Assembly: GCA_017648065.1 (NCBI GenBank)
Contig: JAGCJJ010000078.1
Coordinates: forward strand, 1-35,493
Direction: 5' to 3'
Length of the DNA stretch: 35,493 nt
Source of the DNA: Kiritimatiellia bacterium
GTDB lineage: Bacteria > Verrucomicrobiota > Kiritimatiellia > RFP12 > UBA3636
Positions 21,557 to 33,450 of the stretch are shown in pieces; the first letter of the stretch is position 1, and the number at the start of each line of letters is the position of its first letter. The notes below the pieces were generated by a model that saw only the letters and a list, made by a program, of their open reading frames with translations, ran no database searches and was not told where the DNA came from. The translations under genes and the position numbers were made by a program.

Positions 21557-22408
21557 TTAGACATTTTTTAGCTTTTCTACTACCTCATCACGATCTTCTC
21601 GGCTTGTAATACCAAACCACTCTGAGGTTGTTCGTAGCAGTTTAACCTTTGCATCACCAGCAGCTAACAAAGCACTAAGTTCTGTTGGCATCTGATATTC
21701 TGCCTTTGGATTACCCTCGCTACGCTTTAAGAATGCAGGGAAGCGAGCAATCAATGCATCCATATAACTACGCTTAAATCCGAATAGATTCATTGAAACC
21801 GGTGTATCATCAGCAAAAGCATCTCCTTCATCACGAATTACACCATCATCCTCACGGCGTAGTGCAAGGCGCTCAGTTACTTTTGTCAGGAAGCTATTTT
21901 CATCAATCTCACAAATACCACGTGAAACACCACTATACTTAGATAGTGTTTTTGACAACTCATAAGCTACCATACAATATGTATTAGGCTCAGATTCTGT
22001 TTCCTTTAGATATTGATATGCCAATTTAAAGCCTTCTGCGCCATAAAAATCATCTGCATTTACTACAACAAATGTATCTGCTACTACATTACGAGCTGCA
22101 TACACTGCATGTGCGGTACCCCAAGGCTTTGTTCTGCCCTCTGGTAATGTAAATCCTTCTGGTAAATCAGATAAATCTTGGATTGCATAAGCAACGTCAA
22201 ATTTACCCTCCCAATGAGAGCCAACGATTTCCTTAAAATCCTTTTCAATATCTTTACGAATTACAAACACCACTCTGTCAAAGCCTGCTTCCTTTGCAAA
22301 ACGTACGCTATAATCAAGAATAAACTCTCCATTTGGTCCTAGTGGGTCCATCTGCTTAAGACCTCCATAGCGACTTCCCATACCTGCTGCAAGAACTAAC
22401 AAATCCAT
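21557..22408 (-). CDS. Nucleotidyltransferase of the sugar-phosphate type
   Basis: The 283-residue protein starts with the NTP-binding loop LVLAAGMGSRYGGLKQMDPLG and has the metal-binding NADDFYG (about residues 117-123) and WGTAHAVYAAR, as in glucose-1-phosphate thymidylyl/uridylyl transferases. It probably activates a sugar phosphate or another phosphorylated group with a nucleotide; the true substrate cannot be read from sequence. A near-perfect AAGGAGG precedes the ATG at 22408. It lies 28 bases after the M15-type peptidase gene. An outer-envelope sugar pathway is possible, but no other pathway genes are nearby. Confidence 0.85.
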   Translation of the reverse strand: MDLLVLAAGMGSRYGGLKQMDPLGPNGEFILDYSVRFAKEAGFDRVVFVIRKDIEKDFKEIVGSHWEGKFDVAYAIQDLSDLPEGFTLPEGRTKPWGTAHAVYAARNVVADTFVVVNADDFYGAEGFKLAYQYLKETESEPNTYCMVAYELSKTLSKYSGVSRGICEIDENSFLTKVTERLALRREDDGVIRDEGDAFADDTPVSMNLFGFKRSYMDALIARFPAFLKRSEGNPKAEYQMPTELSALLAAGDAKVKLLRTTSEWFGITSREDRDEVVEKLKNV

Positions 22409-22436
22409 ATTTCTTCCTCCTTAAACAAAACTTATA

Positions 22437-23294
22437 CTATTTACCATATGTTTGAAGCACTGGTCCATCTGCTTTTACAGACACATGAACATGAGGGCCT
22501 GTTCCAGATGCATATTCATAAAATACCCAATCAAATCCTGCCTGCCATGCTAGCTTACAAAGTAATTCATATAATTCCTTCATCTCATCAGCCGTCTTAA
22601 GTTTTTCACCATTTTTATAGCCTAATGTGATATCTAAAGCTCGTCCTTCCTTATGTAAAGACTTTGGCGAATGAATTCCTTCAGGGCGATATGTTTCTTG
22701 AACACGCAACTGGTATTCGGTTTGTGATTCAACTAAATTAACAAGACGACGAAATGGAATTTCCATTGCTCGGTGCATTGAATGGTCACACTCGTTATCT
22801 GTTTCACCATCATTATCACTTTCCCACCAAACACGCAAATCTGTAACATAAATTAAATCTCTACCAGGAGAAAATGTACTATTTACAATTTCTCCACAAA
22901 CGTCTCGCTCTGACATATTCGGCAATTTTGAATTACGAGCAAAACTTTCCGGTGCCGGGCGAACTGGATTAACTAAATCGACACCCTGTGGCTCTTTCTT
23001 CTTTTTAGGTTCCTGCTTTTGAATATCTTTGCTCGGAGTTGATTCAATTACTTTCGTTTCTTTTTTAATCTCAACAGCTTTTGGTGTATCCTTTTTTTGA
23101 CAAGACCCAATTATTGACATACAGAAAATAATCACAAGAACAAAAGGAATAATTGCTGCCTTAATCAGTGCACGATGCTTAATATCTGCTAGATAATCAG
23201 GCAAAGTATCATTATTATTAATAGAAGACATAGAACTCTGACGAGCTCCACACGAAATCTTTATACTATTAAAATTTGATCTTTTTTTTGCCAT
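22437..23294 (-). CDS. Membrane-anchored M15-type peptidase with a Hedgehog-like domain
   Basis: The 285-residue protein has a hydrophobic segment at about 45-64 ending IIGSC65, either a membrane anchor or a lipobox, then a basic, disordered linker (about 66-105) and a C-terminal zinc-peptidase domain (about 140-278). The zinc ligands are [10 protein letters not shown] (H214, D221) and HVH (H270), with E260 in GFDWVFYE as catalytic acid and H208 conserved. The order [34 protein letters not shown] and HVHVSVKA mirrors the animal Hedgehog signalling domain, which belongs to the same fold as D-Ala-D-Ala/M15 peptidases. It probably acts on peptidoglycan outside the cell. No clear ribosome binding site precedes 23294; an internal ATG at 23231 is possible. 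It is 15 bases after proC. Confidence 0.8.
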
Positions 23295-23309: not shown

Positions 23310-24107
23310 TTAAATTTTGCTTAACTCCTTACTGCGACGAGCTGCTGCAGCAAGAGTTCTTTTCATTGTGCTCTTAACAGCAGATTTTTCAAGAACTGCG
23401 AGACCCTCTGCTGTTGTTCCTTTAGCAGATGTAACTGCTTTAATAAAATCAGAAATTGTGCCATCTGAAGCTTGCAGTACAGTTGCTGTACCTAGCATAG
23501 TTTGAATGGCTAGAGTTTGAGCAACCTCATTCTCTAAGCCTAGTGCAACACCTCCATCAATCATTGCCTGGAGAACATATGCCATGAATGCAGGCCCTGA
23601 GCCACTAAGTGCAGTAACTGCATCAAGCTGCTCTTCCTTTAGCTGCACAGCCTTACCTGTGAGAGCAAGAAGCTTTCCTGCTAATGCAGCCTGATTTTTC
23701 TTAACCTTTGAGCCTATTGCATAACCCGTCATTCCCTCGCCAACAGAAACTGCGAGGTTTGGCATTGCACGAACAACTGCTGCCTTTGGAAGAAGTGCCT
23801 CAAGCCACTCTAACTTTCTTCCTGCTGCAATTGAAATATAAAGAGGACGTGCAAGGCTCTCTGACTCTGCCACAGATTTTAGTAAAGCCTCAAGATCCTG
23901 TGGCTTTACAGCTAGAAAAACGACATCACATTTTTCAATTACTTCGAGGGCTGTGGCAGGGTGTACCTTATATTTTTTCTTTAGTTCGTCAAGGCGTGGT
24001 TGATATGCATCGCAAGCATAAAGCTTTGTTGCGACCTTTGCATTTTTTAGAGAGACTAGGATTGCTCCTCCCATTTTACCGGCACCAAGAAACCCGATTG
24101 TTGGCAT
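23310..24107 (-). CDS. proC: Pyrroline-5-carboxylate reductase
   Basis: ProC reduces 1-pyrroline-5-carboxylate to proline with NAD(P)H. The 265-residue protein has the Rossmann motif GFLGAGKMGGAIL at the start, FLAVKPQDLEALL, and the catalytic-domain blocks ALSGSGPAFMAYVLQAMIDGG and VTSAKGTTAEGLAVLE. The ATG at 24107 has GAGGT eight bases upstream. A terminator precedes it, so it may begin its own transcript or depend on read-through from the arginine operon, which shares the glutamate-derived precursor. Confidence 0.95.
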   Translation of the reverse strand: MPTIGFLGAGKMGGAILVSLKNAKVATKLYACDAYQPRLDELKKKYKVHPATALEVIEKCDVVFLAVKPQDLEALLKSVAESESLARPLYISIAAGRKLEWLEALLPKAAVVRAMPNLAVSVGEGMTGYAIGSKVKKNQAALAGKLLALTGKAVQLKEEQLDAVTALSGSGPAFMAYVLQAMIDGGVALGLENEVAQTLAIQTMLGTATVLQASDGTISDFIKAVTSAKGTTAEGLAVLEKSAVKSTMKRTLAAAARRSKELSKI

Positions 24108-24194: not shown

Positions 24195-24716
24195 TTAGTA
24201 AGCAGATTCAATAAGAGCCTTAAGCTTCATTTGGAATTGGCGTAGATATTCCTGGCTAGGGCGATAGCCCTCTGTAGTAAAGTCCATAGAGATGCGGCCA
24301 TCATTTGTGATGCCCCACTCTGCTGCTTCACCATCAGGGAATACAAGACTGCCACAAAGAGCAAAGCCAGGTCTTTGGATTCGGCTTATTTCAACAGAAA
24401 CCTCACCCTCTTCTACTGGCTTTGCCCCACCCATTGGAAGCTCTGCCTCAGAAGCAACACCACTCTCGCTCTCTGCATCAATATCGTGAACCACACCACT
24501 TGCAGGAGCTTCCTCCATTGCAGGAGCTGCTGGCTGCTTTGGTGCAGGCACTTCCTTATCCTTGATGCTTGCATTGATATCCATCACAAGAAAACGTGTT
24601 TCCATGTAGCTCATGTGGATATCAAATTCTTCAGCAAGGCGTGACTGTATCTCTGATAAGCCTGCGCCTTCCTGTGCCCAAGTGCGTACTGCCTGCTCTT
24701 GCTCAGCGGTCAACAT
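24195..24716 (-). CDS. Conserved protein of unknown function, PVC type
   Basis: The 173-residue protein starts MLTAEQEQAVRTWAQEGAGL, followed by SEIQSRLAEEFDIHMSYMET, which looks like a helical recognition-like segment. A proline/alanine/glutamate-rich linker (about 55-105) leads to a C-terminal part with SVEISRIQRPGFALCGSLVF, GITNDGRISMDF and GYRPSQEYLRQFQMKLK. I recall related proteins in Verrucomicrobiota-like genomes, with no known function. The start is only 4 bases after argG ends, so it is translated with the arginine operon. I cannot assign a role. Confidence 0.8.
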   Translation of the reverse strand: MLTAEQEQAVRTWAQEGAGLSEIQSRLAEEFDIHMSYMETRFLVMDINASIKDKEVPAPKQPAAPAMEEAPASGVVHDIDAESESGVASEAELPMGGAKPVEEGEVSVEISRIQRPGFALCGSLVFPDGEAAEWGITNDGRISMDFTTEGYRPSQEYLRQFQMKLKALIESAY

Positions 24717-29715: not shown

Positions 29716-32700
29716 TTATTTGATGATAATAACTGTTGCAGCTGTAGCAGGAATGAAGTACTTCAAACCTGTTGGACGCTGACCAACCTCTTCTGGTTCG
29801 TCTAAATCAGATGGCCATCCATAGGTGTATGAAAGCACTGCTCCACGTGTATCTTCAACAACAACATTGTTTGTATCAATACCAGACTCCCACAAGATTA
29901 AGTGACCATCAGCAGCTCTCTCACCACCACGTAGCTGAATAGACTTTGGATCAATCTTAACAATAAGCTTTGCTGTACTGTCAGCATTCTTGTATGTACC
30001 CAAAGGCAATACTTTGCTTGATGTTGCATATAGAGGAGCTGCATTTGTATAGCCACCATTTGGAACATCAAAGATTACTGTCAAATCATTATTTCCAGCT
30101 ACACTTTCTGTATCAAGAAGAATTGCCTCTTTAACAGCGATTGTAGGTGCTGCACCAGCAATGCGTACATTTACATTTTCTAAGTGCTCTGCAGTTTCAA
30201 CAGAAAGCTTTGTTACTGTAAATGTTGCATCATCAACAACTAATGCATCACCACCAGTTGAACCAAGCGCCATCTCTTTGTATGTTACAGAAGATCCGCT
30301 TTCAACAGCAAATGTAACATTAGTACCTCTGATATTTACTCCTGAACCACCTTGAGAGAATACTGCTCCATTTGTAAATTTGAATACAGAATTTGTACTT
30401 ACATAGGAACCAATTCCCCGGTCAATAGTATCCTTTTCACCCAATGTCATTGCGGAAAATTCAACATACTCATCATTCATTGTTCCTGCAAACATATCAA
30501 AACGGATTTTTGAAGTAGCAGCATCTTTTCCTACAAAACGAACTTTTAGACCATCTTTGGAACCAAGATTTAAATCCTCCAAATAATAGTAGATATCAGA
30601 AATATAAACTGTAGCAACAGTTCCTGCCTCAAAATATATACCATTATTTGTATCAAGAGGATAACCTGCGATAACTCCATCTGCAGGAATATTGCTAGGT
30701 TTCCAGCTGTTTGGATCATCCCAATAACCCTCAGCTACCTCTTTATTCCAAGTATAAGAAGCTAAGTCACGTGTTGTAACAGAAATAATTCCTGTTTGTG
30801 ATGTCCAACTACTTCCTGAAGCTATTGAGTTTTCTGAAGCAACATATAGCTTCCAATCTTGAGGAAGTCCGTCAATAACAACCTTAATATATGACTGGGT
30901 AGCATCAGCTGCAAAGAAAAAGTCATGCTCAACCATGCTATTAGAATCTTTTCCAACAAAGACCTTATAGGTTGTCTCACCAGCACCAATTTCAAAGTCC
31001 TTCATTGAAATAGTAACTGTATGACTATTTACTGTTGTTGTTGGAGCTACAGGCAATACTGTACCTGCTTTTGTTGTAAATGAAACAACTTCTGTTAAAT
31101 CATTTCCGCCCTCGCTTGTTGTAGCAACATACTGATAATAGTAAGTTGTACCTGGTTCAAGAGAAGTTACATAAGAATAGTTACCAACATTAGAAACAGG
31201 AATATCATATTCCTTTGCCCCACTCATATCCTGAGATGTTGACAAAAGCAGCTTTAGAGAGAACTCTCCAACACCGACACTACCAACATTTACATTAAAT
31301 GTACCTGTATCACCATTATGTGCAACACCTTCATCTCCGATTGAAACACTTGTCAAATCAATCTGTGCAGTGTAGCTCCATGAGGTTGAACCATCTGGAT
31401 GAACGAACATAAAGCGTGTGTATAATGCTTTAGGAACAGAAGTTACAAAGCTTGCTTCAGCTGCTGAAATATCACCTACAAGTGCTACATTATCCCATGC
31501 ATCTTGATCCTCTGCCTCATAAGTATCGCCATATAGTACATATAGCTGGCCCTCATCACCAGAGCTAATATTTAAATCAAAATCAATATTTGATCCATTT
31601 GGGGAATATGAGTTAACAATTATATCACGTCCAGGAATACCTGTTTTTAATTTTGCGCCATATTCAACACTCAAGAACTTCCAAGCAATAGTACCAGGGG
31701 CCTCTGACACTACTGTTGCACCATCCTTGTTCCAACCAAAAGAATAAGCCCAACCACCATGTGTTCCTGCGGAGCCTCTTCCATTTTGCATCCATAGCTG
31801 AATACGATGCCAACCGGTCTCTATACACTCATAAGTTCCAACTGATGGCGTAGCATAGCCACAATCAAGAATTATCTCACCATCAATCTTTAATCTTGTG
31901 TTATCCTGGAAATTGGCAAAGAAATTATATGAGCTTCCAGCCTCTAGCCACATATATCCAAGGTATGAATATCCACGTCCAGAGTCCATTTTCCACTCAT
32001 TCCCATCCTTATCTACATAAAGACTGGTGTAAAGTCCTGAAGCATTATTTCCTGAAGAAAGACCTGCTGCAATTGCTCCAGGCATAGGAACAAGTGTTTC
32101 ATCTGTTTCATCAAAAGCAACAAAGCTTGAGGAGGTTGAATAATGCTTTTGTAATAAACCATCAGTCACAGATCTGCCAAAGGTATCAATGCGAACAACT
32201 TCCTCCTGGTTTGGAAGCGTAAATGTGATAACACTTGAGTATGATTTATCACCTGCATCATTTTCTACAACTAATCTTACAAAATAAGTTTCTGCTGGAC
32301 GCAAGTCATTAATTTCAAATACCTCTCCTCCAAAAAAGGCATCATCCAAAACGATTTCTTCTCTTGCAAAAGAGCCATCCTCAGCAAAATCACTTGCAAC
32401 ATTTGAAATCTGCAAAGAAAGGACTACTTTACCACTTTGAGAATTAGCACCTGCGAATTCTACTGATACCGGTATCAGAGCAGAAAAAATACGTGTTTGA
32501 ATTACACCAGCAGCAACTGTTGGGTTAATAACAGTAGCCTTATTTTCCATGCGTAGGATTACTACACCAGAGCCACCTGATGCACCAGCGCCCCAGTTCT
32601 TTGAACCGCCACCGCCACCACCATGATTTGGGCGACCTTGAGCATACTGAAGATTATTTTTCATTGAGTTATCGTCTGAACCAGCATTGTAACCACAACC

Positions 32701-33450
32701 CCAAATGAAACCATCTGCATCAGGTGTTGTATCACCACCAAGGCCACCTAATCCATTATAACCACCAGCACCACCGCCAGGTCCATAATAATCAACTACG
32801 CCAGTAATATCACTTGCTCGGCCTGGGCCACCAGCTGACATACGAACTGTTGAACTGCCCTTATCATTATGTACTTGAACAGGAGAACCACCAGCACCGC
32901 CACCACCTTGAGGAGATGTTGTTGCATCAACAGAAGGATAACCTTGACCTTCTACGCCCTTACCAGCGCTACCCCAGTTTGCCGGGCCGCCACCGCAGCC
33001 GCCATCACGACCTGCACCAGAGCCATATGCTCCACCGCCGCCACCACCAAATGCTTGGAAAACGACCTTATTACCTGAAGCATCAAAAATAATAGAATCT
33101 TCACCATTGTAGCCCTTCTGACCAGTGGCAATACCTTGAGCACCACCTTTACCTACAGTAATGAGGTATGTGCCGGCCTTTAGTGTAATTGTTTCGTCAA
33201 TTACACCACCGCCGCCGCCACCGCCGCCGCAGTCAAAACCACCGCCACCGCCACCACCGACGACGCGAACGCGTGCTTCTACATCTGAATAAAGCGACAA
33301 TGTTCCTGACTCATTAAAGGTGTGAATCACCTCTGTATTGTCATTCAAGTATGTATCAATACCACCACTGCCCACCAGCGATGCCATTGCTGCTGAAATA
33401 CCAGTAAACATCATTGCATTTACTGAAGCAAATAATTTTGAAATTTTCAT
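29716..33450 (-). CDS. Large secreted glycine-rich, PA14-like and FN3-like protein
   Basis: The 1244-residue protein has a signal peptide ending about AAMA-S24, then a glycine-rich domain (about 60-300) with runs such as VVGGGGGGGF and GGGAGGYNGLGGLGG. An FN3-like unit (about 309-412) and a PA14-type carbohydrate-binding-like domain (about 417-593, with MWLEAGSSYNFFANFQDNT and GWHRIQLWMQ) follow, then more FN3-like units to about 900 and a long beta-rich region to the C-terminus (start YTWNKEVAEGYWDDPNSW). No catalytic motif is visible. The end, FIPATAATVIIIK, is not a PEP-CTERM or LPXTG signal. The ATG at 33450 has AAGGGA upstream. It looks like a surface or exported adhesin-like protein; glycan contact is inferred from the PA14-like part. 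Confidence 0.8.
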   Translation of the reverse strand: MKISKLFASVNAMMFTGISAAMASLVGSGGIDTYLNDNTEVIHTFNESGTLSLYSDVEARVRVVGGGGGGGFDCGGGGGGGGVIDETITLKAGTYLITVGKGGAQGIATGQKGYNGEDSIIFDASGNKVVFQAFGGGGGGAYGSGAGRDGGCGGGPANWGSAGKGVEGQGYPSVDATTSPQGGGGAGGSPVQVHNDKGSSTVRMSAGGPGRASDITGVVDYYGPGGGAGGYNGLGGLGGDTTPDADGFIWGCGYNAGSDDNSMKNNLQYAQGRPNHGGGGGGSKNWGAGASGGSGVVILRMENKATVINPTVAAGVIQTRIFSALIPVSVEFAGANSQSGKVVLSLQISNVASDFAEDGSFAREEIVLDDAFFGGEVFEINDLRPAETYFVRLVVENDAGDKSYSSVITFTLPNQEEVVRIDTFGRSVTDGLLQKHYSTSSSFVAFDETDETLVPMPGAIAAGLSSGNNASGLYTSLYVDKDGNEWKMDSGRGYSYLGYMWLEAGSSYNFFANFQDNTRLKIDGEIILDCGYATPSVGTYECIETGWHRIQLWMQNGRGSAGTHGGWAYSFGWNKDGATVVSEAPGTIAWKFLSVEYGAKLKTGIPGRDIIVNSYSPNGSNIDFDLNISSGDEGQLYVLYGDTYEAEDQDAWDNVALVGDISAAEASFVTSVPKALYTRFMFVHPDGSTSWSYTAQIDLTSVSIGDEGVAHNGDTGTFNVNVGSVGVGEFSLKLLLSTSQDMSGAKEYDIPVSNVGNYSYVTSLEPGTTYYYQYVATTSEGGNDLTEVVSFTTKAGTVLPVAPTTTVNSHTVTISMKDFEIGAGETTYKVFVGKDSNSMVEHDFFFAADATQSYIKVVIDGLPQDWKLYVASENSIASGSSWTSQTGIISVTTRDLASYTWNKEVAEGYWDDPNSWKPSNIPADGVIAGYPLDTNNGIYFEAGTVATVYISDIYYYLEDLNLGSKDGLKVRFVGKDAATSKIRFDMFAGTMNDEYVEFSAMTLGEKDTIDRGIGSYVSTNSVFKFTNGAVFSQGGSGVNIRGTNVTFAVESGSSVTYKEMALGSTGGDALVVDDATFTVTKLSVETAEHLENVNVRIAGAAPTIAVKEAILLDTESVAGNNDLTVIFDVPNGGYTNAAPLYATSSKVLPLGTYKNADSTAKLIVKIDPKSIQLRGGERAADGHLILWESGIDTNNVVVEDTRGAVLSYTYGWPSDLDEPEEVGQRPTGLKYFIPATAATVIIIK

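Follow-up and report, generated by a model that had tools for sequence, protein, structure and literature searches.

A membrane-anchored Hedgehog-domain protein family of Kiritimatiellia with a complete zinc-peptidase core and an arginine at a calcium-ligand position

We identified a genuine gene for a Hedgehog-domain protein in a 35,493-nucleotide stretch of DNA from an uncultured gut bacterium of the Kiritimatiellia (hereafter the window), in which the Hedgehog-type domain lies behind an N-terminal membrane anchor and retains all six catalytic residues of the fold. The protein is probably a membrane-tethered periplasmic zinc peptidase that acts on peptidoglycan. Its relatives differ from canonical Hedgehogs at the calcium site, where an arginine that aligns with the active-site arginine of M15 peptidases takes the place of an aspartate. 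The Kiritimatiellia family is a lineage-specific Hedgehog variant that differs from previously published bacterial Hedgehogs. We found no description of a Hedgehog domain in Kiritimatiellia in the literature.

Results

Architecture of the protein

The plus strand at 22437-23294 is full of stops, and the Hedgehog ORF reads on the minus strand from 23294 to 22437 (Table 1). In the encoded protein a membrane anchor at the N-terminus is followed by a charged linker and then by the HH_signal domain, which forms the C-terminal part. An earlier note on this DNA had called the protein membrane-anchored, in agreement with the hydrophobic segment at residues 44-62 (Kyte-Doolittle mean 2.7), and such a segment (Kyte-Doolittle at least 1.6) is present in 51 of 53 relatives. 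A Cys within or just past the anchor occurs in 37 of the 53 relatives; a lipoprotein reading of C65 was rejected because the Cys is only partly conserved and, in the window protein, sits farther from the N-terminus than a classical lipobox would. The Hint/Hog autoprocessing domain is absent: the protein stops 15 residues past H270, and Pfam returned no Hint match. The C-terminal position of the Hedgehog domain behind an anchor resembles the layout of published bacterial Hedgehogs (BacHh), with a presumed orientation in the membrane.

Table 1. Features of the Hedgehog-domain gene and its two neighbours in the window
Feature	Position	Strand	Details or basis
Hedgehog-domain ORF P0001	22437..23294	-	285 aa, ATG start; PF01085 54.4 bits
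Single transmembrane/anchor segment, residues 44-62	23109..23165	-	Kyte-Doolittle 2.68
Charged Lys/Glu/Pro-rich linker, residues 63-105, Cys at 65	22980..23108	-	Sequence
Hedgehog-type domain, residues 106-285	22440..22979	-	AlphaFold2 pLDDT 94.5, pTM 0.91
Family signature loop, residues 156-171, at the Shh E90/E91/D96 half of the calcium site	22782..22829	-	Alignment, column counts
E200-T-Y-R203	22686..22697	-	E200 = Shh E127; R203 in place of Shh D130 calcium ligand
H208 (accessory His, Shh H135), zinc ligands H214 and D221 (HxxxxxxD)	22632..22673	-	59/59 aligned sequences
Catalytic E260 (Shh E177), accessory H268 (Shh H181), zinc ligand H270 (Shh H183)	22485..22517	-	59/59 aligned sequences
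proC, upstream neighbour, 15 bp apart	23310..24107	-	TIGR00112 244 bits
Sugar-phosphate nucleotidyltransferase, downstream neighbour, 28 bp apart	21557..22408	-	PF00483 E 6.6e-8

Homology and predicted fold

The window protein matches the Pfam model HH_signal (PF01085) at 54.4 bits (E 1.6e-14; cut-off 22.1), whereas its M15 scores stay under the Pfam cut-offs (VanY, 14.0 vs 25; M15_4, 13.8 vs 25), so that the Hedgehog profile outscores M15 in the comparison that the earlier note had proposed. In a phmmer search of the PDB, 25 Hedgehog sequences head the list ahead of all else, including Desert hedgehog (9e-13) and Sonic hedgehog (Shh, 5e-12), and the next non-Hedgehog has an E value of 1.1. 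With a family profile the best Hedgehog match improves to 8.5e-24, and the PDB matches are Hedgehogs only. NCBIfam has no model for the protein. As judged from these sequence searches, the similarity to Hedgehog is well beyond chance and no accident of motifs. HH_signal is matched by 50 of 50 family members, among which weak additional matches occur to Peptidase_M15_3 (36 members, best 5.5e-6), M15_2/DUF882 (24) and VanY (14); these are consistent with a position between M15 and Hedgehog, without proving one.

An AlphaFold2 model was built from an alignment of 50 domains and compared with the PDB. Matches 1-38 are all Hedgehog domains (E 4e-12 to 4e-8; TM 0.68-0.84, normalised by target), and the next ones are LdcB, MepA and VanX, peptidases that act on peptidoglycan (E 6e-3 and weaker). 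The structure prediction suggested in the earlier note thus points to a Hedgehog fold.

The LHYEGRALD block is not unique to Hedgehog, because it is also found in a 107-aa ORF on a viral contig (L113, 4866-5189; SARDGTHSPNSLHYEGRALDF...HLHLE), which is probably a short phage M15-type lysin.

The active site is invariant

The earlier note had described a complete Hedgehog-type zinc-peptidase core and had numbered its residues correctly throughout. H208, H214, D221, E260, H268 and H270 are invariant in all 59 aligned sequences, of which 49 belong to the family and 10, Shh among them, are canonical Hedgehogs. In the alignment H214, D221, H270, E260, H208 and H268 correspond to Shh H141, D148, H183, E177, H135 and H181, respectively. 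The window protein thereby carries the M15/LAS-type motifs H214-x6-D221 and H268-x-H270 together with the catalytic acid E260. The short insert that had been noted between E260 and H268 exists and is shared by the family: the spacer is 7 residues long in the window protein and 5-8 across the family, vs 3 in Shh and 2-3 in canonical Hedgehogs. An outlying canonical-type Hedgehog domain, internal to a 522-aa bacterial protein with a further C-terminal region (L097, 7179-8744), has 18 residues between Glu and HxH. The invariant catalytic set together with R203 looks like the pattern of a working enzyme rather than of a pseudo-enzyme.

An arginine occupies a calcium-ligand position

Where Shh has D130, all 49 family members carry Arg (R203) and all 10 canonical Hedgehogs carry Asp, and R203 aligns with the YR/FR arginine of two VanY-type M15 proteins. 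In VanX, Arg71 (Arg47 in ChiX) has been implicated in binding the substrate (PMC5778951), and in LdcB the product carboxylate is bound or bridged by Arg120 (PMC4087270); R203 would be the equivalent of these three residues. The Shh E90/E91 loop is replaced by a longer acidic loop, WWESD...E[C/D]DH, in which D170 corresponds to Shh D96. The E127 position is kept acidic (E or D at 200; E200 in the window protein) and the D132 position is variable. The window protein thus lacks the full calcium-ligand set E90, E91, D96, E127, D130 and D132, and the acidic cluster that the earlier note had placed at the calcium site holds for the aligned E90/E91/D96 half, but not for the D130 half, which is replaced by R203. 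The FDTED...MHPAM loop shared by Anaerolineae Hedgehogs resembles the DxEDDHxxH loop of the window family.

Relation to Shh and to known bacterial Hedgehogs

Bacterial Hedgehogs (BacHh or Hh-DD-peptidase) have already been published (Roelink 2018, PMC6027127; Jagers and Roelink 2021, PMC8052667). The BacHh proteins compared here were those of Pararhizobium gei (P0002), Anaerolineae (L090-L096) and Bacteroidales (L092). Rooting of the tree with VanY failed, the VanY branches being 9-10 changes per site long, and the final tree was built without VanY and is unrooted; it is therefore silent on which Hedgehog group is older. In this tree the 39 sampled family members lie on one side of a branch with support of 100/99, and Shh groups with the Pararhizobium BacHh and the Bacteroidales protein (support 92/89). 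Identity to Shh is 53% for the Pararhizobium BacHh, which scores 147 bits, vs 34% and about 50 bits for the window protein (28-38% identity to Shh across its family). The window protein is therefore not the nearest bacterial relative of animal Hedgehog, and its closeness to Hedgehog, which the earlier note had offered as part of the novelty, does not survive the comparison; the BacHh published in 2018 (PMC6027127) show it better.

The window protein shares with BacHh the C-terminal Hedgehog-type domain, the zinc ligands, the catalytic Glu and the accessory His residues. However, published BacHh proteins keep the Shh calcium ligands and exceed 50% identity to ShhN, whereas in the window family D130 is replaced by Arg and the calcium loop by WWESD...EDDH, the Glu-to-HxH spacer is 7 rather than 2-3 residues, and the members form a separate clade. 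Since its calcium-ligand set is incomplete, the window protein should not be filed as a canonical BacHh. With the N-domains of Sonic, Desert and Indian hedgehog (PF01085) it has in common the fold, the SLHxEGRAxDxT, AGFDWVxYE and HxHxSV blocks and the six catalytic residues; it differs from them in the lack of Hint/Hog, in its incomplete calcium ligands and in an anchor that is a helix instead of palmitate plus cholesterol. The M15/LAS peptidases (VanY, LdcB, VanX, MepA, DUF882/YcbK) share HxxxxxxD and HxH, the catalytic acid, by alignment an Arg at the R203 position and, probably, the substrate, but the window protein falls under the Pfam M15 cut-offs and its fold match to them is far weaker than that to Hedgehog.

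Distribution

The draft genome of which the window forms one contig is 2.06 Mb in size and has a single copy of the Hedgehog-domain gene. Its closest named relatives (83% domain identity) come from Kiritimatiellae metagenome-assembled genomes (MAGs) of cattle and deer rectum. The searches yielded 62 loci altogether. Almost all of them lie in MAGs whose titles read Kiritimatiellae, Lentisphaerae or Verrucomicrobia, and the record titles of the relatives name gut, marine, lake, sediment, digester and groundwater-type habitats. Within the class of the window, 52 of 288 genomes are positive, always with one copy (51 strong matches and one marginal, E 9e-4). Among the sampled genomes of one family of the same order (f4) the gene was not found. 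Because most sampled class members lack it, the gene is not essential to wall growth. One member on a contig titled Phycisphaerae (Planctomycetota; L050) is nested in the Kiritimatiellia clade and reflects either a mis-binned contig or a transfer.

Canonical Hedgehog domains are rare and sporadic, occurring in Anaerolineae (L090, L091, L093-L096, with two copies in genome G409) and in Bacteroidales (L092); searches of about 250 Chloroflexota genomes revealed no further Hedgehog domain, and those of about 394 Bacteroidota genomes none over the cut-off. A viral origin was rejected, as no relative turned up in phage records and just one short lysin-like ORF matched in IMG/VR. Spread of the window-type family by plasmids was likewise rejected: one canonical BacHh was found on a Pararhizobium plasmid, and no window-type member on any.

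Gene neighbourhood and recombination

In the window, proC and the Hedgehog-domain gene are probably co-transcribed. The order argJ-argB-argD-argG-unknown-proC-Hedgehog-nucleotidyltransferase is kept in the closest relatives (L036-L038), and the unknown gene and proC also lie upstream of the Hedgehog-domain gene in L039-L041 and L044. The unknown gene (24195-24716 in the window, 173 aa) has no Pfam or NCBIfam family over threshold and is kept upstream of proC in the window's family. In other families the neighbours are different housekeeping genes that resemble topA/dprA, scpA/scpB and trpS (named by eye), and no conserved cell-wall genes flank the Hedgehog-domain gene at the loci compared. The linkage to proC and the nucleotidyltransferase, stressed in the earlier note, therefore exists in the window's own family and is absent elsewhere; being so confined, it says little on function, and we drew no function from the operon.

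In both of the other genomes sampled from the genus, an ORF resembling an acyltransferase (named by eye; L036 8544-9296, L037 8549-9277) sits between the Hedgehog-domain gene and the nucleotidyltransferase, and it is missing from the window (22409-22436), as is a pseudopilin-like ORF (also named by eye) that follows the nucleotidyltransferase in close relatives. Between the window and L036 (7692-8522), dS of the Hedgehog-domain gene is about 1.06, vs 0.035-0.09 for the flanking genes from argJ to proC, and identity reaches 98% in another region of the same genome. Recombination thus appears to have replaced the Hedgehog-domain gene in one of the lineages; both genomes are MAGs, and a cause in binning or assembly is possible. 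Elsewhere in the window, 29716-33450 encodes a predicted 1244-aa surface protein that has a glycine-rich domain and matches Fn3 weakly; as a whole it was not found in the two other genomes of the genus.

Discussion

The invariant residues and the anchor suggest how the protein may work. H214, D221 and H270 would bind zinc, and E260 would activate water in a site flanked by H208 and H268. R203, at the position of the VanX/LdcB-type Arg, may hold the substrate carboxylate or stabilise the intermediate. The N-terminal helix and the flexible linker would keep the domain near the inner membrane, presumably on its periplasmic side, where it most likely trims or opens peptidoglycan peptide stems or cross-links as a carboxypeptidase or endopeptidase. 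The acidic loop WWESD...E[C/D]DH and E200 may still bind calcium or another cation, though hardly in the full two-calcium arrangement of Shh. The organism very probably makes cross-linked peptidoglycan, because penicillin-binding transpeptidases are present (four matches in the window's genome; found in 21 of 21 genomes); VanY was not found in the window's genome. Whole-cell ornithine is reported for Kiritimatiellaeota in PMC5303756, citing Spring et al. 2016, which suggests an unusual wall.

The same catalytic residues would also serve a zinc protease that cuts proteins of the cell's own envelope or outside the cell, a reading that agrees with the patchy distribution and the lack of conserved cell-wall neighbours. 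We consider it unlikely, since all biochemically known bacterial LAS relatives in the fold search (LdcB, MepA, VanX, ChiX and Ply500) act on peptidoglycan or its precursors. The domain might instead be non-catalytic, a ligand-like or cell-wall-binding Hedgehog domain in which zinc is structural only, as has been argued for animal Hedgehog. Animal Hedgehog works as a receptor ligand, and we came across no publication in which enzymatic activity had been measured for a bacterial Hedgehog domain. The one published assay that PMC6027127 discusses, in which ShhN lacked protease activity, likewise counts against the peptidase reading that we favour. Nevertheless, E260, H208, H268 and R203 are invariant alongside the zinc ligands and no bacterial receptor is known for such a domain, and we give this explanation little credence.

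That the protein is an ordinary M15 DD-peptidase, Hedgehog-like only in shared motif blocks, is very improbable. Weak M15_3, DUF882 and VanY matches in many members, the M15-like Arg203 and the SLHYEGRALDF of the viral-contig ORF, which makes that block alone non-diagnostic, fit such a reading; yet HH_signal lies about 40 bits above every M15 model in the window protein and matches every family member, the PDB profile search returned Hedgehogs only, and the best fold match to an M15 enzyme (6e-3) is far behind that to Hedgehog (4e-12). Capture of the gene from an animal host by a gut bacterium, to which the rectal origin of the nearest named relatives might point, has a negligible probability: judging by record titles, MAGs of marine, sediment, lake, digester and groundwater-type origin carry the family too, its members form a single deep clade that is separate from Shh (support 100/99), and their identity to Shh is 28-38% throughout, so that tree and distribution refute an animal-to-bacterium transfer.

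The membrane-tethered peptidoglycan peptidase that we favour bears on an old open question, namely whether animal Hedgehog still works as a peptidase or is what remains, inactive, of a cell-wall enzyme. This could be tested more simply on a bacterial family that is compact, membrane-anchored and lineage-wide and that has invariant catalytic residues and an M15-type Arg absent from Hedgehog. The contrast between this Arg and the Asp of canonical Hedgehogs provides a concrete hypothesis for the origin of the calcium site. We tentatively raise the possibility, on balance a doubtful one, that the Kiritimatiellia family survives as a branch intermediate between Hedgehog and the M15 peptidases of the cell wall, with the Hedgehog fold but with the M15 Arg kept, so that a single Arg-to-Asp switch would mark the gain of the calcium site. 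If so, the family would provide a Hedgehog-domain protein that can be tested as an enzyme, and a point of reference for asking whether Hedgehog descends from a cell-wall enzyme.
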